Shown here: piece after piece, positions 17,013 to 43,324 of the stretch
Layout of the letters: every line of letters starts with the position of its first letter
Numbering within the stretch: position 1 is the first letter of the stretch
IMG/VR virus record: IMGVR_UViG_3300022752_000054
Coordinates: 1 to 64,000 of that record
Length of the DNA stretch: 64,000 nt
Source of the DNA: a virus
Strand: one strand, 5' to 3'
Translations under genes and position numbers: made by a program
Notes under the pieces: generated by a model
What the model was told of the DNA's origin: nothing
Databases searched by the model: none
The model's input: the letters and a program-made list of their open reading frames with translations, nothing else

Positions 17013-17131
17013 TCTCAACAGAAAAATAATTGAGCGACGGCGTGTAAAACACTCTGACCCTAGGTTACTATAGGATCATCAAACAACGGAGGAAACGAAA
17101 ACAAAAGGTTGAGTTTGCAGATTGAATGTTT
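17013..17131 (+). promoter_or_regulatory. leader region of the split tRNA gene
   Basis: A 119-bp gap with a CTCAA ... TTGAG hairpin just after the upstream stop, then TACTATAGG about 60 bases before the tRNA, which could serve as its -10 element. No coding sequence seen. Confidence 0.25.
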
Positions 17132-17443
17132 CCGCCTCTAGCTCAATAGGTCAGAGCAGTGCGCTTAAAGGTTCATAATACTAAACAGTAAAATGCATGT
17201 ATTATGAATCAGGGCTGCCGGATGAAACACTCCGGTATAACTTGACAAATTCGGGGAACGCTAAGTGGGGAAACTCATATGCCAATCCCGAGCCAAGCCT
17301 GGTAAAACAGGAAGGTGTAGAGACTAGACGTCAAGCCCGAGAGGGAAGGGATAGTCCAGACCACAAACAACGTAAGTTGGCGATGAAAATCGCAGTGGAA
17401 CTGCATAACGCAAAGTGTTACGGTTCAAGTCCGTAGGGGCGGA
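17132..17443 (+). tRNA. tRNA with CAU anticodon (Ile2 or Met), interrupted by a group I intron
   Basis: Exons 17132-17165 and 17404-17443 join into a 74-nt cloverleaf: acceptor CCGCCTC/GGGGCGG with discriminator A, U8-A9, D-stem GCTC/GAGC, anticodon loop CTCATAA, T-arm TACGG-TTCAAGT-CCGTA. CCA is not encoded. The only blemish is a G-A mismatch at 27-43. Loop CTCATAA fits both tRNA-Ile2, whose C34 is converted to lysidine, and elongator tRNA-Met. The TilS gene 7 kb downstream favours Ile2. The intron sits between U33 and C34. Confidence 0.85.
17166..17403 (+). ncRNA. group I self-splicing intron, 238 nt (IC3-like)
   Basis: Catalytic-core landmarks are all present: a 12-bp hairpin after the 5' splice site (GGTTCATAATAC with GTATTATGAATC), P2 CCGGA/TCCGG, P3 strands TTGAC and GTCAA, the P4/P6 region TTCGGGG ... 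CCCGAGCC, the conserved GTGTAGAGACTAGACG followed by GATAGTCC for P7, P8 CCCGAGAGGG, and a terminal G at 17403. The core closely follows the Azoarcus tRNA-Ile(CAU) intron. U17165 ends the 5' exon; a GGC at the base of the hairpin could pair with GCU as the guide. It encodes no endonuclease of its own. Confidence 0.85.
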
Positions 17444-17450
17444 CAAATAT

Positions 17451-17490
17451 AAGGAATCTTTAGACTAATCCTCTAAAGGTTCCTTTTTTT
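17451..17490 (+). terminator. rho-independent terminator after the split tRNA
   Basis: Stem AAGGAATCTTTAGA with TCTAAAGGTTCCTT around a short loop, followed by seven T. Ends the tRNA transcript and faces the convergent endonuclease gene. Confidence 0.8.
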
Positions 17491-17543
17491 ATTGCTTCGA
17501 TTTCATCCTTCATGATAATCTTTAATTTCTTGGGAAAACTTTT

Positions 17544-18242
17544 TCATTTGGCTTTGTCTCTGTCTGTTGCACAACCCTTTACTTCTACGTAGAGTTTTAA
17601 TGAATCTATGTAGAAGTCAGGAAAATATTTCCTCTGGCCTTCCCAATCATACTCAAAGTATTCTAGGCATCTTTGTGGGTTCAATCCTTCATTTTTAGCC
17701 CAATCATAAAATATTATTTCCCACGTGCTGTCAAATCTCACGCCATCTATTGTTACTTTTTTAGCACGAAAACGATTTAAGTTTGAATAAGATTCCGGGT
17801 GTTCTTCAACTGCTTTCTTCATGTAAGCGCGTATCTGATCTTTTCTTTCTTGCGAATATTGCCGACCAGACAATTTCTTTCTTAATTTCTCTTTTGTTTC
17901 TTCGGTGATTGGATTCCTGATTCTACGCGGATTGTCTGGACATTGTGATTCATGACACATGAGACTTAAGAAAGAAGATTTGAACTTCCCAAGATCACAA
18001 TCTTTTTGGCAGAATTTACATAAGAATTTTTGAGTCTCTGTGCACTCTTTTCTTCTCTCTTTGACCGCTTTTCTCTTTAAGGTTATCGGGGAAGCTTCTC
18101 CACCCACATATTTTCCTTTTCTAGAAGGAATTTTCAAGTTCTTGCTTCTGTTAGGATTTGATTCACACCAAGCTTCATGAATCCTCAGCGACATTAGGTT
18201 CGGCTTCTTCGATTCTTTCCCGCAATATTGACAATGATGCAT
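17544..18242 (-). CDS. putative homing endonuclease, zinc fingers plus PD-(D/E)XK/Vsr-like nuclease (232 aa)
   Basis: Start set at the ATG at 18242 (MHHCQYCGKESKKPN). The N-terminal region has two zinc-finger-like units (CQYCGK ... HEAWC and CKFCQK ... HESQC), then a NUMOD-like basic stretch, then the nuclease: RFDSTWEIIFYDWAKNEG, YFEYDWEGQRKYFPDFYI, LYVEVKG. The F-x-S-x-WE and PDF ... EVKG elements suit the Vsr-like/EDxHD class. The protein at 56466-57074 has the same layout. The frame runs on upstream through a tRNA-like sequence and a terminator, so no clean RBS is seen; the gene may be an insertion that uses a tRNA target. Confidence 0.65.
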   Translation of the reverse strand: MHHCQYCGKESKKPNLMSLRIHEAWCESNPNRSKNLKIPSRKGKYVGGEASPITLKRKAVKERRKECTETQKFLCKFCQKDCDLGKFKSSFLSLMCHESQCPDNPRRIRNPITEETKEKLRKKLSGRQYSQERKDQIRAYMKKAVEEHPESYSNLNRFRAKKVTIDGVRFDSTWEIIFYDWAKNEGLNPQRCLEYFEYDWEGQRKYFPDFYIDSLKLYVEVKGCATDRDKAK

Positions 18243-18289
18243 AATGATATAAGTATCAGCTACTCTTACCAATTGAGCTTTTCCACAAA
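18241..18289 (-). other. tRNA-like 5' half at the endonuclease start (possible remnant)
   Basis: On the minus strand GTGGAAAAGCTCAATTGG and then TAAGAGTAGCTGATACTTAT looks like acceptor, D-arm and 5' anticodon arm of a tRNA. No matching T-arm follows; instead the endonuclease frame begins. Could be a tRNA broken by endonuclease insertion or a chance similarity. Confidence 0.3.
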
Positions 18290-18324
18290 TAAAAAACCGG
18301 CCCGAGATTTCTCCCAGGCCGGTC
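18290..18324 (-). terminator. rho-independent terminator (minus strand)
   Basis: On the minus strand ACCGGCC ... GGCCGGT with an 18-base loop region and a run of T. It closes the transcript of the gene at 18354-18866 and would also separate it from the endonuclease. Confidence 0.75.
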
Positions 18325-18353
18325 ATGTTAGGTACGATTATGTGGTCAAATCA

Positions 18354-24364: not shown

Positions 24365-24973
24365 ATGATCAGGTTCCTTGGAAAGCTGCCTCGCAAGTGT
24401 GTGGTTGCCTTCAGCGGTGGTGTTGATTCCGTGGCAGTGACTGATTTTCTTCTCAACGGAAAGCGTGATGTTCACCTGGCATTTTTTCACCATGGAACTG
24501 TGACATCCGATGAGGCAGAGAAGTTTGCAAAGGAATTCGCCAGGGAGAGGAACCTCAACTTATCCATCGGGCGGATCAGCAATGAAAAGTCACCGGGTGA
24601 ATCCATGGAGGAATACTGGCGGAACGAGAGGTATCGATTCCTTTCCATGTACAATTTCCCGGTGATTACTGCACATCACCTTGGAGATGCCGTGGAGACA
24701 TGGATCTTCAATTCTCTGCACGGAAATCCCCGAATCTTGCCTTATCAGAGGAACAACATCATCAGGCCTTTCCTTATCACCCCTAAGTCTGAGTTGATTG
24801 ATTGGGCTAAAAGGAAAGGATTGAAGTGGATGGAGGATGAATCCAACAACGATCTGAAGTACATGAGGAACCTGATCAGGCACAAGATCGTCCCTGAGGC
24901 AATGGTGATTAATCCTGGTCTTGACAAGGTTGTAAAGAAGATGTATATTAAGGAAGAGATGAAAGAGGGGTAA
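24365..24973 (+). CDS. tilS: tRNA(Ile)-lysidine synthetase (202 aa)
   Basis: Ligates lysine to C34 of tRNA-Ile(CAU), switching it from reading AUG to AUA and from Met to Ile charging. Seen: PP-loop AFSGGVDS at residues 15-22, HHGTVTSDEAE, the TilS-typical TAHHLGDAVETWIFNSLHG, RPFLITPKSELIDWA, and WMEDESNNDLKYMRNLIR. The protein is only the N-terminal catalytic domain and lacks the C-terminal tRNA-binding domains of long TilS enzymes. The split tRNA(CAU) gene at 17132 is an obvious substrate. Two small genes and a SpoU methyltransferase follow. Confidence 0.9.
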   Translation: MIRFLGKLPRKCVVAFSGGVDSVAVTDFLLNGKRDVHLAFFHHGTVTSDEAEKFAKEFARERNLNLSIGRISNEKSPGESMEEYWRNERYRFLSMYNFPVITAHHLGDAVETWIFNSLHGNPRILPYQRNNIIRPFLITPKSELIDWAKRKGLKWMEDESNNDLKYMRNLIRHKIVPEAMVINPGLDKVVKKMYIKEEMKEG

Positions 24974-27683: not shown

Positions 27684-27768
27684 GGGGCCAAAATAGTTTC
27701 GACGAAGTTCTAATGCCAAATGACACAGGCCCAAGTGAACGAGTATCAGCATACTTATATAAAAATAT
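27684..27768 (+). ncRNA. tmRNA 5'-end-like sequence (incomplete)
   Basis: GGGGCCAAAATAG followed by TTTCGACG and, 13 bases on, ATGCCAAATG resembles the 5' end of bacterial tmRNA (GGGG, then UUCGAC, then GCAUGCCGAGG). No 3' T-arm/acceptor half is found before the next gene at 27769 or just after it. So this is either a relic, part of a split gene, or chance. Its place directly upstream of clpP is notable. Confidence 0.3.
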
Positions 27769-30830: not shown

Positions 30831-32765
30831 TCAAGCGTCACGCCACAAATTATTTGAAGCATACACAAGAATCTCTTCTGCGCTTTCGGCGGTGTATCCA
30901 TGATCCTTGATGAGTGTTGCCACCATCTCATTGTACTTTTCCTTCTGCTCCTCGTCACGAGTTTTGCTCTTGGTCACGACTCTAGCAAGTGATTTGACCG
31001 ATGAGATGAGGAATGATTCAATGGCCTCACGGAGTGGTTCATAAGAACGGAATCCGACCTTTTCGCCTCGACGCATTTTGGCGAACATGTAGGCGGCAAC
31101 GTCAGATCGGAATCCGTCGCGTGCGGAGCCGCTGATACCAATTTGCTCCTCAATTGAAGCCATGAATTGCTCGTCTGGCTTTCTCTCTTCTTTTGTGACG
31201 CGATCCTTGAGCTTAACGCGTGTGGTATAAGCCTCTGCATTGTCAAGGTAAGTGTCGAAGAGGGATTGAGCCTGTTCCTCGTAGGCGGAAATGAATGCCT
31301 TTGCGATCTCGTTCTCGAGGATCTTAAGGTATTCTTCACGAACTGTCTTCTGGAGAATTTCAAGGCACTTTGTCTTGAATGTCTCATCGTTGATCTGCTC
31401 TTTCACCATCTTGGTTAATGACTCAATGACAGAAACCGGCGTGATCATTCCTTTGTCGGATGCTGTGAGGGCATTATCCAACGCTTTGGTGATGAAGCGC
31501 GTGGAGATTCCATCCATACCCTCGTGTTTTGCTTCCTCACGAAGGTCTTTAATGTCGACCTTACGAACGCGACCTTTCTCTAAGACGTCCTCGCCGTTAT
31601 AGATCTTCATTTTCGTCAACAAATCGCATTTAGCCGAGGGTTTCAGGCGGCTCATGACTGAGAACATTGAAGCAACCTTGAGGGTGTGCGGTGCGATATG
31701 CGCTTTGAAGTCCGACTTACCGAGCATCTTTTCGTAGATCTTCTGTTCCTGATCAACTTCAAGGCAGTAAGGAACTGCGATCTTGACGATGCGGTCCATG
31801 ATAGCCTCATTGGTGTGCTCCGACTGGAATCGGTTCCACTCAGCCTCGTTGCAGTGGGCGAGAATGACGCCGTCGAAGTGAAGCATGTCCGATTTACCAG
31901 GTGATGGAACCCTCTTCTCCTGTGTGGCGGTGATGATGGTGTGGAGGAACTCGATCTCATTCTTGAAGACCTCGACCAGCTCCACGATGCCACGGTTGCC
32001 CACGTTGAATGCACCTGTGAGTGAGAGTGCTCGTGGATCATCCTCTGCGTATTTGTCAAGCTTAGAGATATCCACCGAGCCGATGAGGACAGAAACGTCC
32101 TGACTGTTGGCATCCATTGGAGGAACAGCAGCTACGCCTCTCCGTCCCCTCTGAGAGAACGTGGTCTCCTCGACCTCAAAATCCTCATACTTACCGCCAT
32201 AATCGTTGAGGAGCTTGTGACGTGCAACGGGAGAGATATCTCCATCAATCTTCACGTTGAGTGCCTTCTCAAATTCCGAACGAAGAGAACGTGGGACGAG
32301 TTGTAGGGGCTCACCACGATGAGGATCTCCCTTGAGGTGATAGTACTTCTTGCCTTCGAGCGCACGTTTAATGTGCTCTGTTAATGCTGATTTACCAGCT
32401 CCGACTGGTCCCATTAAGAGTAGAACCTGGCGAGATTCCTCACCCTTGTGTGCTGCTGAAGACAGGAACGACATGATCTTGTCAATGACCGTCTCCATTC
32501 CGAAGAACTCACCCTCAAAGTACTTGTGGACTTTAACGGCGTCGCCGTCAAACACCTTGAACTTGCGTGAGTCTGAGTCAGGCATCACGTAGGAACCGTG
32601 CTCCTCGATGGCCTCATAGAGCCTGCGATGCGCCGATTTTACTATTGATGGTTCCTTTTCGACGAGGTCGACGTAATCCATAAGATTACCAGAGAACTTT
32701 TTTGTTTTGGATGACTCTTCTCGAGCCGTTTGAATTTGTTTGAGTAGTTGCTTCTTGACGCTCAT
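30831..32765 (-). CDS. prkA: PrkA-family serine kinase/AAA protein (644 aa)
   Basis: Full-length relative of YeaG/PrkA. AAA domain with Walker A GPVGAGKS at 119-126, then HLKGDPHRGEPLQLVP, TGAFNVGNRGIVELVEVFKN, and ITATQEKRVPSPGKSDMLHFDGVILAHCNEAEW, all hallmarks of the PrkA N-terminal domain. The C-terminal kinase-like region follows from about 400. In bacteria PrkA acts with YeaH and SpoVR under starvation and nitrogen stress. It is the last gene of the three-gene minus-strand operon, 33 bp after spoVR. Finding the whole set in a phage-like region suggests takeover of this stress circuit. Confidence 0.9.
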   Translation of the reverse strand: MSVKKQLLKQIQTAREESSKTKKFSGNLMDYVDLVEKEPSIVKSAHRRLYEAIEEHGSYVMPDSDSRKFKVFDGDAVKVHKYFEGEFFGMETVIDKIMSFLSSAAHKGEESRQVLLLMGPVGAGKSALTEHIKRALEGKKYYHLKGDPHRGEPLQLVPRSLRSEFEKALNVKIDGDISPVARHKLLNDYGGKYEDFEVEETTFSQRGRRGVAAVPPMDANSQDVSVLIGSVDISKLDKYAEDDPRALSLTGAFNVGNRGIVELVEVFKNEIEFLHTIITATQEKRVPSPGKSDMLHFDGVILAHCNEAEWNRFQSEHTNEAIMDRIVKIAVPYCLEVDQEQKIYEKMLGKSDFKAHIAPHTLKVASMFSVMSRLKPSAKCDLLTKMKIYNGEDVLEKGRVRKVDIKDLREEAKHEGMDGISTRFITKALDNALTASDKGMITPVSVIESLTKMVKEQINDETFKTKCLEILQKTVREEYLKILENEIAKAFISAYEEQAQSLFDTYLDNAEAYTTRVKLKDRVTKEERKPDEQFMASIEEQIGISGSARDGFRSDVAAYMFAKMRRGEKVGFRSYEPLREAIESFLISSVKSLARVVTKSKTRDEEQKEKYNEMVATLIKDHGYTAESAEEILVYASNNLWRDA

Positions 32766-32798
32766 GTTGTTATGTATACCTCTCCCTGCTCCAGTGTA

Positions 32799-34109
32799 TC
32801 AAATCTCCCAAGTTTCATCTTCAATAATTGTGAAGAATTTCACGTCGCTACCCCACAGAGTCTTGACGTGTTCCACGACTTTATTGGCATGGCTTAATTC
32901 TAGATCTCGACCATCATGTTCATGTTTGATGATCAATGTACCATCTCTCTTTACGTCATCCACAAAGACAGCTGGAATGGATCCACCTGCCACTTGGTTG
33001 ACGAGATCTTTCTTCACCTCTTCCCACCCTAAGTCATCTGAAACTTCATCGACTGTAATTCCCTCGTGGCGCTTCGATGAATATGTGAAGAGATTGAGAT
33101 CCACGCAGTCCTCTTCCGTGAGATATTGGCGGAGGAAAGAAGCGTCATGGCATGTCTCTCTTGCGATGAAGCACTCTTCGATGCCATGCCTCTCCTTAAT
33201 CTTCTGGAATAGATGGAAGCCTAAGTGATAAGGATTGATCGCTCCCACGTGTGGTCTGACCACTTGGTTGTGCATTTTGATAAAAGGTAGATGCATACCA
33301 TCAGGTAGGTCCAACTCATGACACATGGTGTAGTGCCAGTAGGAAGCCCATCCTTCGTTCATGACCTTCGTTTGTATCTGTGGCCAGAAGTACTGGCCTT
33401 CGTCACGGCAAACGTCAATGATGTCGCGTTTCCAATCAGGCATCTTACCGTGTTCCGAGATGAAACCTAATAGATCATAATCAGGTTCTAGCGGAATTCT
33501 ATTGACATCGAAATTCTTATATTCATTTTTCTTGTCGTTGTTCATCAGTTCGACGTATTCGGCTCTGAGCTCTGCATGAGTCCTGCGGGTTTGTCCGTAC
33601 TTCGTCGTCTGGAACTGTATTGCGTGACAGGAGTCTATCACCTCTTCCACGTTTTCCACACCGATGTTGGGATTCTCAATGTAAGATTGGATTCTCTTCT
33701 TCGCCGCTCTGAACCGAGGCACAACTGTCTCAGGTCGTGTGGCCTTGAACATCCTGTTGTTCTTAAAGAAATCGCTATGTCCGACGCAATGCGCCATGAT
33801 GAGGATCTGCAGGTATAGTGGATTCTCACGCATGAGGTAAGCGATCGATGGATCACTGTTGATGATTAATTCATACGGCAAACCTTCCATACCTAGGTTA
33901 TAACGGTGGAATGTTTGTTCGAACGTTTTACCATAGGACCAATGATCGAAGTGTGTAGGAAGACCATGATAGGCCATGGCACCGATCATTGAATAATAAT
34001 CGAGAGTTTCATAGGCAATCTCAAACCAATCGAGATTGTGACCCTTGGCCAACTTGCAGATCTTATCATCCCATTCTGCCAATGTATCTAATGTGTAATC
34101 CATTTTCAT
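32799..34109 (-). CDS. spoVR: SpoVR/YcgB family protein (436 aa)
   Basis: Recognised from NLDWFEIAYETLDYYSMIGAMA, GLPTHFDHWSYGKTFEQT, GMEGLPYELIINSDPSIAYLM, MAHCVGHSDFFKNN, NEGWASYWHYTM and YHLGFHLFQKI, the conserved blocks of the family. It is somewhat shorter than the E. coli YcgB type (about 510 residues). Biochemical activity is unknown; His- and Glu-rich motifs suggest a metal-binding enzyme-like fold. ATGA overlap with yeaH shows translational coupling in the order yeaH-spoVR-prkA. Confidence 0.92.
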   Translation of the reverse strand: MKMDYTLDTLAEWDDKICKLAKGHNLDWFEIAYETLDYYSMIGAMAYHGLPTHFDHWSYGKTFEQTFHRYNLGMEGLPYELIINSDPSIAYLMRENPLYLQILIMAHCVGHSDFFKNNRMFKATRPETVVPRFRAAKKRIQSYIENPNIGVENVEEVIDSCHAIQFQTTKYGQTRRTHAELRAEYVELMNNDKKNEYKNFDVNRIPLEPDYDLLGFISEHGKMPDWKRDIIDVCRDEGQYFWPQIQTKVMNEGWASYWHYTMCHELDLPDGMHLPFIKMHNQVVRPHVGAINPYHLGFHLFQKIKERHGIEECFIARETCHDASFLRQYLTEEDCVDLNLFTYSSKRHEGITVDEVSDDLGWEEVKKDLVNQVAGGSIPAVFVDDVKRDGTLIIKHEHDGRDLELSHANKVVEHVKTLWGSDVKFFTIIEDETWEI

Positions 34110-35278
34110 CCTTTGGTCAAAGACACGCCTGTACCACCCATCAATGTTCTAAAAGCAGGCCATACGTCTGCCTTCTCTACCACCCTAACGGTCTTTAATT
34201 TTGGTCCGACGAGAGGTTGCATCGTTGTATGGAGCTTGTCTTGATTGTAATACCTTTCAGGTTCAATCTCGCAGTAACCGTACAGCTGACAGATGTCTTT
34301 TAGTTCACGGGCGAGACCTATGAACTTCTCATTGTCCGACGAGAAGTTATCACCGTCGGACGCCTGAAACGTGTAGATGTTCCATGATGACGGATGAAAT
34401 CGTTTACTTATCTCTTGTAACGTCAACTCCAAAGCGCTGGATGCGATCGTTCCTCCGCTGGTGGCTTCGGTAAAGAATTCTTTCTCTTCGACCACCCTCG
34501 CCTCGGTGTCGTGTGTGATGAAAACGACCTCAACCGTTTCGTACTTGGATCTAATGAACTGGTAGAGCAAGAAGAAGAAGGATCTTGCTAGGAACTTCTT
34601 GTCTTGCGTCATTGACCCGCTGACGTCCATCAAGAAAAATATGACTGCGTTGGTGCAAGGTTTCGGCGTGACCTTGAAGTGTCTGTACCTCAAATCGTCT
34701 TCGTGGAAAGAGAAGGTCTCTCCTTCTTCGGCCTTCTCAGGATCAAATCCTGCCGCCTTCATTCTCTTGATTCGAGCGATTGCAGACTTCTTCTTGTCTA
34801 GGCGTGGAAGAATACCATCGGTGCGATATCCATTCCTTTTCAGCTTGTCAGCTGATATGTTTGATAGTTGACGTCTCTGCAACTCGGGAAGTTGTAGTTC
34901 AGCGAAGAGATACTCTGCGAGTTCTTCTAACGTGATCTCAACATCGTAATACTCTTCTCCTTTTTTGTCGCTGGCTTTTTGAGGTTTTCCTTGACCTTGT
35001 TGCTGTCCCTCACCTATCTTTTGGCCACGTTTAACGTCTTTACCTGGAGCTGATCCAACTTGCTTGTTGCCGTTATTGTCGCCATAGACGAACTTGTATT
35101 CCTTAATTCCCCTGACAGGAACCCTGAATTTTTTCTTACCGTCTTGGCCTATGATGCTTTCATCTGCAACGATGTGATGGATTCCATCTCGAATTGCCTT
35201 CTCAATTTTCTGTTTGTGACGACGTCGATCGGAGGCAGATCGATCAGCGATTGTCTTATGTTCCTTAAAGATCGACAT
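34106..35278 (-). CDS. yeaH: YeaH/YhbH (DUF444) vWA-like protein (390 aa)
   Basis: N-terminal RSASDRRRHKQKIEKAIRDG and SIIGQDGKKKFRVPVRGIKEY are typical of YeaH. A Gly/Gln/Lys linker follows, then a vWA-type fold with the MIDAS-like FFLMDVSGSMTQDKK near residue 217 and the late ASDGDNF. Partner of PrkA and SpoVR in many proteobacteria. First gene of the operon; GTATAAT lies 10-16 bases before the ATG on the minus strand. Confidence 0.92.
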   Translation of the reverse strand: MSIFKEHKTIADRSASDRRRHKQKIEKAIRDGIHHIVADESIIGQDGKKKFRVPVRGIKEYKFVYGDNNGNKQVGSAPGKDVKRGQKIGEGQQQGQGKPQKASDKKGEEYYDVEITLEELAEYLFAELQLPELQRRQLSNISADKLKRNGYRTDGILPRLDKKKSAIARIKRMKAAGFDPEKAEEGETFSFHEDDLRYRHFKVTPKPCTNAVIFFLMDVSGSMTQDKKFLARSFFFLLYQFIRSKYETVEVVFITHDTEARVVEEKEFFTEATSGGTIASSALELTLQEISKRFHPSSWNIYTFQASDGDNFSSDNEKFIGLARELKDICQLYGYCEIEPERYYNQDKLHTTMQPLVGPKLKTVRVVEKADVWPAFRTLMGGTGVSLTKG

Positions 35279-41701: not shown

Positions 41702-43324
41702 ATGTCTTTTGAACCCCAATCTCTGAAGTCTAATAGTCGCGTCTTGTTTTCTAGCGATGCAAGAAAGAAATTATACGCTGGTCTTAGTATAGCAGCTGAA
41801 GCTGTCAGTTGTACTTTGGGTCCAAATGGAAAAACAGTTTTAATTCAAAATGGGAATGATTCTCCGATTATCACTAAAGATGGTGTGACGGTCAGCAAGT
41901 CTATAAGATTAGATGACCCAGTAGAGATGATGGGAGTAAGACTTTTGAGAGAAGCTGCGTCTCAAACCAACGATACGGCTGGTGATGGAACAACCACCTC
42001 TACTGTTCTTACTCACGCTTTAGTAAAAAATGGGTTAAATTTGCTAGAGGCAGGTTACAACGCAAAAAAGCTTGTAGAAGGAATGGATATTGCGATAAGG
42101 TTAGTAACAGATGCTGTTGTTTCTCAAGCCCATCCGGTTGAAACAGCTGAAGAAATTGCGCAAATTGGTACCATTTCAGCTAATGGTGACAAGAAAATAG
42201 GAGAGCTAATTTCAGCTGCAATGGAAAAAGTTGGAAGAGATGGAATCATTACTGTAGAGGATGCTAAAGGAATGGCAACCACTCTTGACGTGGTTGACGG
42301 AATGCAGTTTGACAGGGGTTATTTAAGCCCTTACTTCGTTACGAATAACGAAAAGATGCATGCTTCTTATAATGATGCATATGTTCTAGTTACAGATAAA
42401 AAAATATCTGCATTAAAGGATCTTATTCCTATTCTTGAAGCAGTGGTAAACTCTAGAAAACCTCTTCTCATCATTGCTGATGATGTTGATGGGGAAGCAT
42501 TACAAGGATTAGTTCTTAACAGGGTAAAATCTCAATTACCAGTTGTCGCCATTAAATCTCCTGGATTTGGAACTTCAAAAGATGAATACATCATTGATAT
42601 TTCAAAGCTGACAGGAGCTAAACTGATTTCTAGCTCTACTGGTTTGTCTCTGGACAAGGTAAAACTAACGGATTTAGGAATTGCAAAGAAGTTTGTGGTC
42701 GATGCAAAGACCACAACCATCGTTGGTCCCTCATCTGCAAGAGAGCAGGTTCAAGAACACGTTTCTGATCTAAAAGAGAGGCTTAGCGACGTAACAATAA
42801 GCTCTCTTGAAATGAACAACCTTCGAACCAGGATCGCTCGTCTTGCTTCTGGAGTTGCTGTCGTCCGAGTCGGCGGCGCGACCGAGATGGAAATGATTGA
42901 ACGTAAATATAGAATAGAAGATGCTCTTCATGCAACACGTGCGGCAACAGAAGAAGGAATAATTCCAGGCGGAGGAACGGCTTTATACACGGCCTCAATA
43001 GCTGCTAGAAAAGCTACAAAAAATGTTTCTTATGAAAGAGATGTTTTGGCTGGAATTGAAATGGTTTTTAAATCTTGTGTAGAACCACTAAGAAGAATTG
43101 CTCATAATAGTGGCAAGTCACCAGATGTCATTGAAGAATGTATGAGTAAGAATGTCAATAGTAACTTCGGATATGATGCTTCTTCAGGAGAGTTTGTCGA
43201 TCTTGTGGCAGCTGGTATTATCGATCCTGTCAAAGTTACTAAAATGGCTCTTAAGAATTCTTCTTCAGTTGCTAGACTATTTTTAACTTTGGACGCTGTC
43301 TTGGTCAATGGAGAAACTGCTTGA
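41702..43324 (+). CDS. groEL: phage GroEL-like chaperonin (540 aa)
   Basis: Full-length group I chaperonin: VSCTLGPNGKTVLIQ (equatorial), DGVTVSKSI, NDTAGDGTTTSTVLTHAL (ATP site), apical GYLSPYFVTNNEKM, and EEGIIPGGGTALY. Compared with cellular GroEL it has an N-terminal extension (MSFEPQSLKSNSRVLF) and lacks the GGM tail, ending at LDAVLVNGETA. No GroES is adjacent, so it may use host GroES or work alone, as reported for some jumbo-phage chaperonins. TTGA overlap links it to an SH3-like gene. ACTATATTACC precedes the ATG. Confidence 0.95.
   Translation: MSFEPQSLKSNSRVLFSSDARKKLYAGLSIAAEAVSCTLGPNGKTVLIQNGNDSPIITKDGVTVSKSIRLDDPVEMMGVRLLREAASQTNDTAGDGTTTSTVLTHALVKNGLNLLEAGYNAKKLVEGMDIAIRLVTDAVVSQAHPVETAEEIAQIGTISANGDKKIGELISAAMEKVGRDGIITVEDAKGMATTLDVVDGMQFDRGYLSPYFVTNNEKMHASYNDAYVLVTDKKISALKDLIPILEAVVNSRKPLLIIADDVDGEALQGLVLNRVKSQLPVVAIKSPGFGTSKDEYIIDISKLTGAKLISSSTGLSLDKVKLTDLGIAKKFVVDAKTTTIVGPSSAREQVQEHVSDLKERLSDVTISSLEMNNLRTRIARLASGVAVVRVGGATEMEMIERKYRIEDALHATRAATEEGIIPGGGTALYTASIAARKATKNVSYERDVLAGIEMVFKSCVEPLRRIAHNSGKSPDVIEECMSKNVNSNFGYDASSGEFVDLVAAGIIDPVKVTKMALKNSSSVARLFLTLDAVLVNGETA

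Follow-up and report, generated by a model that had tools for sequence, protein, structure and literature searches.

A phage tRNA(CAU) gene split by an IC3-like group I intron, with a tilS gene and a gene of a tRNA-linked endonuclease family in its neighborhood

A tRNA(CAU) gene carried by a large bacterial virus is split by a group I intron located between U33 and C34 of the anticodon loop. The gene was analyzed in a 64-kb stretch of DNA (hereafter the window), taken from a viral record of 73,430 bases. We regard it as highly probable that the locus as a whole is a phage tRNA-Ile2(CAU) gene with a self-splicing IC3-like intron at U33|C34, carried on a mobile block where an endonuclease family linked to tRNA(CAU) has its place. 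The intron site is less unusual than had been thought in the earlier note on this DNA, and what makes the locus interesting is that it lies in a phage, with tilS as a partner and an endonuclease gene linked to it.

Anatomy of the interrupted gene and its intron

The following features were assigned to the gene and the intron.

17132..17165, + strand: 5' exon of the tRNA(CAU), probably tRNA-Ile2, from the acceptor strand to U33
17166..17403, + strand: group I intron, IC3-like, 238 nt, with omega-G 17403 at its end
17170..17210, + strand: P1 extension, 12 bp (17170–17181 with 17199–17210)
17212..17215, + strand: internal guide sequence GGGC, which pairs with exon G31, C32, and U33; U33.G wobble at 17213
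17218..17235, + strand: P2 hairpin CCGGA/UCCGG, with compensatory changes in L012
17241..17335, + strand: P3 (17241–17246 with 17330–17335) enclosing P4 (17251–17256 with 17286–17291), P5, and P6
17322..17356, + strand: P7, GACUA 17322–17326 with UAGUC 17352–17356
17336..17345, + strand: P8, CCC-GAGA-GGG, between the P7 strands
17361..17398, + strand: P9 (CCAC/GUGG) plus P9a and P9b, whose loops are GUAA and GAAA, respectively
17404..17443, + strand: 3' exon, from C34 A35 U36 to discriminator A73
17451..17485, + strand: strong intrinsic terminator directly 3' of the tRNA, 14-pair stem and T run

Once joined, the two exons (34 and 40 nt) form a tRNA of 74 nt whose anticodon is CAU and whose loop reads CUCAUAA, and CCA is not encoded in the 3' exon. 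ARAGORN recognized a tRNA(CAT) in the ligated exons, and its four arms (acceptor, D, anticodon, and T) contain G27.A43 as the sole mismatch; homologues agree with this cloverleaf and its 7-nt anticodon loop containing U33. The cloverleaf and the intronless relatives bear out the coordinates, the exon total, and the U33|C34 junction that had been read from the letters in the earlier note, and also support its view that the intron has to be removed for a working anticodon loop. Without its intron option, ARAGORN called nothing in the unspliced DNA of the gene, and ordinary tRNA scans of the window returned ten other tRNAs, all 39–42 kb away, and missed this one. With the intron option, the precursor was read as tRNA-Phe(GAA), which was rejected as a misplaced junction. 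A 5' junction one U later gives either an 8-nt loop or an intron that ends in C and leaves UAU as the anticodon; it was dismissed, since the terminal-G rule and the intronless homologues speak against it. The 7-nt loop of the intronless relatives arises only from U33|U with a terminal G (G17403); the exon finder presupposed this G, and the intronless L004 backs it independently. No sigma-70-like promoter for the gene was found by a simple scan, and the intron contains no long reading frame of its own.

In the intron, P1, P2, P3, P4, P5/P5a (GAAA loop), P6/P6a, P7, P8 (GAGA loop), P9, P9a, and P9b are readable, and the region from P3 to P9 is complete. The P3–P8/P4–P6 core, the paired P7, the U.G wobble at the 5' splice site, and the terminal G are those of a group I intron. 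All of the landmarks first noticed from the sequence (P3, P4, P6, P7, and P8) are therefore present, and P1, P2, P5/P5a, and P9 can be added to them. P1 is short, with three exon pairs followed by a mismatch or bulge; P9.0 amounts to AG/CU at most, and no P10 was recognized in the intron. The minimum-energy fold of the precursor lacks the pseudoknotted core and was not used as evidence.

A full-length alignment of the Rfam model RF00028 to the intron scored 41.1 bits (E 3.8e-9), below the gathering score of 50, which a member of the same intron clade (L106) clears with 52.1 bits. A second covariance model (R1) was built from 20 other tRNA(CAU) introns (6 viral and 14 genomic), with a hand-written group I core as the structure on the aligned introns; the window intron and its nearest relatives were left out of this set. 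R1 matched the window with 134.5 bits (E 5.5e-35) at 17240–17402, which was its sole match in the 64 kb. The covariance search suggested in the earlier note thus falls short of the cut-off with RF00028, but P7 is fully paired and the intron scores well with R1. In the R1 alignment, 95.2% of cells pair and 27 of the 41 core pairs change on both sides, counts that lean towards the structure because it was partly fitted on the same alignment (the window is not in it). Counts this high occurred in 0 of 500 shuffles, and neither the shuffles nor six slid versions came close. Among 107 tRNA(CAU) introns, guide base 4 covaries with exon position −3, as the pairing of P1 demands (A-U 32, G-C 59, and others 16; Fisher p 1e-12, calculated over related sequences that are not independent). 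The guides were placed by a simple motif rule, and thus the 16 exceptions may include misplaced guides. The core, which is as in bacterial tRNA introns, the P2 hairpin, and the GNRA loops of P9 suggest that the intron is IC3-like, as judged with a model built solely from tRNA introns and not an official IC3 model.

Empty sites, block exchange, and the endonuclease family

Relatives were found via the neighboring tilS gene. Uninterrupted tRNA(CAU) genes lie close to tilS in L004, L006–L010, L013–L015, and L019–L021, and the exact empty site of the U33|C34 intron is seen in intronless relatives. L004, whose TilS is 82% identical to that of the window, has the same acceptor and D-arm plan and the sequence CUCAUAA across the junction, and the stem differences between the two tRNAs are compensatory changes. 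An intron at U33|C34 is also present in L002 and L012, and a different one, with merely 62 bits in R1, interrupts U36|A37 in L005 and L011. In a tree of 113 intron cores, the window groups with L002, L012, L106, and L116 in a single clade (support 100/94) consisting entirely of viral contigs, and this clade adjoins introns of Rhodocyclales and their relatives with weak support (80/67). The 361-kb contig of L106 has the tRNA–intron, the convergent endonuclease gene, and tilS in the same order as the window. A 278-kb relative (G004, with locus L005) carries a terminase, and the window encodes tail and baseplate-like proteins.

Between the window and L002, the exons are 100% and the introns 98.7% identical, whereas the upstream flanks are 78% identical. 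Between the window and L005, the flanks are 94% identical, whereas the exons (47–57%) and the introns (58%) differ widely. These identities show that a block from ~17,100 to 18,300 is swapped between phages independently of its surroundings, and close relatives have thus exchanged the whole tRNA–intron–endonuclease block.

Other genes of these phages were also recorded. A tmRNA gene lies 3 kb after tilS in L002 (13323–13699), L003, and L005; it was searched for in the window and is absent there, and the alignment to the relatives breaks at that place (27743–27760). Phage copies of PrkA, SpoVR, and DUF444 are adjacent in the window (30831–35278, − strand), and a GroEL-like phage chaperonin of 540 aa is encoded at 41702–43324.

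The gene facing the interrupted tRNA belongs to a family of free-standing endonucleases.

17460..18326, − strand: PD-(D/E)XK endonuclease gene, convergent and free-standing, a member of the family linked to tRNA(CAU) (phrog_15137 endonuclease, E 7e-14)

Among 152 viral loci matched in a profile search, the 80 best, comprising 58 non-identical ones, were analyzed. In 48 of these 58 loci, a tRNA(CAU) starts at most 46 nt from the endonuclease stop codon, often overlapping with it, and three further loci abut an interrupted tRNA(CAU), which brings the number to 51 of 58. Among the other tRNAs near the loci of this same set, CAU accounts for 21 of 260. The overlap with the tRNA start is frequently ~10 nt, where tRNA bases 8–10 (UAG) form the endonuclease stop codon (L275–L354). 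The cultured Kuttervirus PhaxI and Kujavirus have the same 10-nt overlap with a gene labeled tRNA-Met, and T4-like relatives are located at other places. Since the endonuclease also occurs at intronless loci, it is tied to the tRNA gene and not to the intron.

P210-D211 and E222-x-K224, which constitute a PD..ExK motif, are invariant in 46 members of the family. A search of the endonuclease sequence against the PDB found nothing useful. The structure of the C-terminal domain was predicted with confidence, and the predicted fold weakly resembles Vsr-like and homing PD-(D/E)XK nucleases; the structural matches to 3hrl and the homing endonuclease I-Bth0305I are weak, and none has E < 0.001. In the window, an in-frame TGA (17544–17546) removes the last conserved part of the gene, and thus the enzyme may be inactive here. 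Homologues are intact elsewhere, for example in L005.

tRNA identity and the proposed mechanism

A tRNA with the anticodon CAU can be tRNA-Met, tRNA-fMet, or tRNA-Ile2. The gene that bears on this choice lies 7 kb downstream.

24365..24973, + strand: phage tRNA(Ile)-lysidine synthetase (TilS), consisting solely of the N-terminal catalytic domain, 202 aa

Its product matches TIGR02432 with 118.2 bits (cut-off 93.6), is recognized as the N-terminal domain, and matches the solved TilS structure 1wy5 (E 7e-31). TilS is found in all five members of the intron clade (the window, L002, L012, L106, and L116), and AUA makes up 126 of the 630 Ile codons (20%) in 36 long ORFs of the window. The genetic linkage with tilS and the AUA share thus suggest tRNA-Ile2 as the best reading and the most likely identity. 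The label Met given to CAU by ARAGORN would fit an elongator or initiator tRNA-Met, with TilS acting on a host tRNA. We consider this improbable, because tRNA(CAU) and tilS are neighbors in most relatives (only ~17 nt apart in L006), C1–G72 is paired, and the anticodon stem is without the GGG/CCC run of initiators.

Here, we propose a mechanism for the locus with its tRNA taken as tRNA-Ile2. The transcript would end at the terminator, and G31-C32-U33 of the exon would pair with the guide GGGC. A guanosine bound in P7 would cut the chain behind U33, whose freed 3' end would then attack behind G17403 to give the spliced tRNA, to which the host would add CCA. The phage TilS would convert C34 to lysidine, and the tRNA would then read AUA as Ile. 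TilS is expected to work on the spliced tRNA only, since C34 and U33 lie apart in the precursor, with the intron between them. The interrupted gene would be part of a mobile block at the spot used by the endonuclease family: intronless tRNA(CAU) genes may be cut by an endonuclease that comes either from this phage or from another one infecting the same cell, and the repair would spread the intron with its flank.

The score below the RF00028 cut-off, the short P1, the G27.A43 mismatch, the minimal P9.0, the lack of a recognized P10, the truncated endonuclease, and a possible charging with methionine speak against this explanation. The first three of these would also be expected if the intron were decayed and no longer spliced, leaving the tRNA a pseudogene. 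The core is intact, however, and the score with the held-out model is like those of other tRNA introns. The exons are the same in the window and L002 though their flanks differ by 22%, and the acceptor and anticodon stems keep their pairing through compensatory changes relative to L004; decay therefore appears quite improbable. The intron might instead benefit the phage, if the unspliced precursor keeps the anticodon loop out of reach of host anticodon nucleases or if splicing sets the time at which the AUA-reading tRNA appears. In related phages, this loop is indeed interrupted at two different sites, but intronless alleles are common at this locus, and we hold a benefit of this kind to be very improbable.

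How the block spreads is a further point. Ordinary homologous recombination between co-infecting phages could suffice, with the endonuclease as a bystander; the truncated gene in the window and the absence of a full endonuclease gene from L002 and L004 are in line with this. On the other hand, the family adjoins almost only tRNA(CAU) genes among the best 80 of the 152 loci, and a remnant of the gene persists in L012 and probably in L002. We thus find recombination by itself rather unlikely, and favor the spread of the block with the help of the endonuclease family. A wider proposal, which we make tentatively and with slightly less than an even chance, is that phages maintain a mobile tRNA-Ile2(CAU) module in which a free-standing PD-(D/E)XK enzyme, specialized on the tRNA(CAU) gene, cuts intronless alleles, that the unrelated introns at the neighboring loop sites U33|C34 and U36|A37 both immunize the gene, and that entire modules take each other's place in different phages.

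Distribution of such introns and comparison with known systems

Viral sequences were scanned with the core pattern (68 stretches) and with a tRNA(CAU)-specific search (48 stretches), and the two were read together. They contain 25 distinct tRNA(CAU) introns at U33|C34, the window included, 2 at U36|A37, and ~29 further distinct introns in tRNA-Leu(UAA), tRNA-Lys, tRNA-Arg, and other tRNAs; not every contig counted here need be from a phage. In bacterial genomes, U33|C34 is interrupted in at least 82 distinct tRNA(CAU) genes and is thus a common intron site. The statement in the earlier note that introns in phage tRNA genes are rare is not supported by these numbers. The exon finder mislabels some Leu intron loops and missed the tRNA-Leu of a 735-kb phage, and these rows were judged by eye. 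In this uncultured phage (L263, LR756501 188796–191924), a group I intron interrupts a tRNA-Leu(UAA) gene at U34|A35 (145 bits). In the cultured Agrobacterium jumbo phage Atu_ph07 (L262, MF403008 111431–114667), a group I intron of 278 nt splits a tRNA-Leu(UAA) gene at the same position (129 bits); the gene is unannotated, and the genome paper of this phage makes no mention of introns. Microcoleus phage OR578706 has an annotated tRNA-Arg of 286 nt. A 280-kb viral contig (L045) contains three group I introns of the window's class in 1.4 kb, at least two of them in tRNA genes (Arg UCU and Lys UUU), with a TilS gene nearby. Many viral contigs (L026–L093) have the same core inside an apparent conserved protein gene, not a tRNA.

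A defined catalytic class now accounts for one phage tRNA intron, and the survey shows further cases. As tRNA searches without intron options miss interrupted genes, phage tRNA sets are under-counted; the tRNA-Leu(UAA) of Atu_ph07 is an example in a cultured phage. With tRNA(CAU), TilS, introns, and a tRNA-bound endonuclease at one locus, the spread of introns through phage tRNA genes becomes directly testable.

Self-splicing introns are present in tRNA genes of bacteria. The Azoarcus pre-tRNA-Ile(CAU) ribozyme belongs to class IC3 and is inserted after the anticodon, at U36|A37. The likeness to it proposed in the earlier note therefore holds for the class and the host tRNA species, but not for the position; we take the Azoarcus site to be that of the distant intron lineage in L005 and L011. 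The IC3 introns in tRNA-Ile(CAU) and tRNA-fMet genes of Rhodocyclales (L146, L177, and L219) share with the window intron the U33|C34 site, the P3–P9 core, and a guide fitted to the exon, whereas the window intron belongs to a separate all-viral clade and has a long P1 extension.

As to phages, a 2014 review placed all phage introns then known in protein genes, despite the many phage tRNA genes. Introns in tRNA genes were later described in Lak megaphages as previously unreported and enigmatic (PMC6784885); the main text of that paper does not assign them to group I, whereas the window intron is classed as group I. The literature searched, which mostly lay outside subscription journals, contained no report of a phage tRNA gene with a group I intron. 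The TilS proteins of the jumbo phages MIJ3 and PA5oct (PMC6892783) are similar in length to that of the window and 41.5% identical to it, but their tRNA(CAU) genes are annotated as uninterrupted. TilS is cut down to a catalytic domain of ~200 aa in the window, and the TilS of PA5oct-like phages is similar in size. The endonuclease family resembles SegB of T4, a free-standing endonuclease among phage tRNA genes that drives their inheritance (PMC2988022), and by analogy collaborative homing, as described for T4, may operate in the family of the window. SegB is a GIY-YIG enzyme, whereas the members of the window family are PD-(D/E)XK-like and keep to a single tRNA species.
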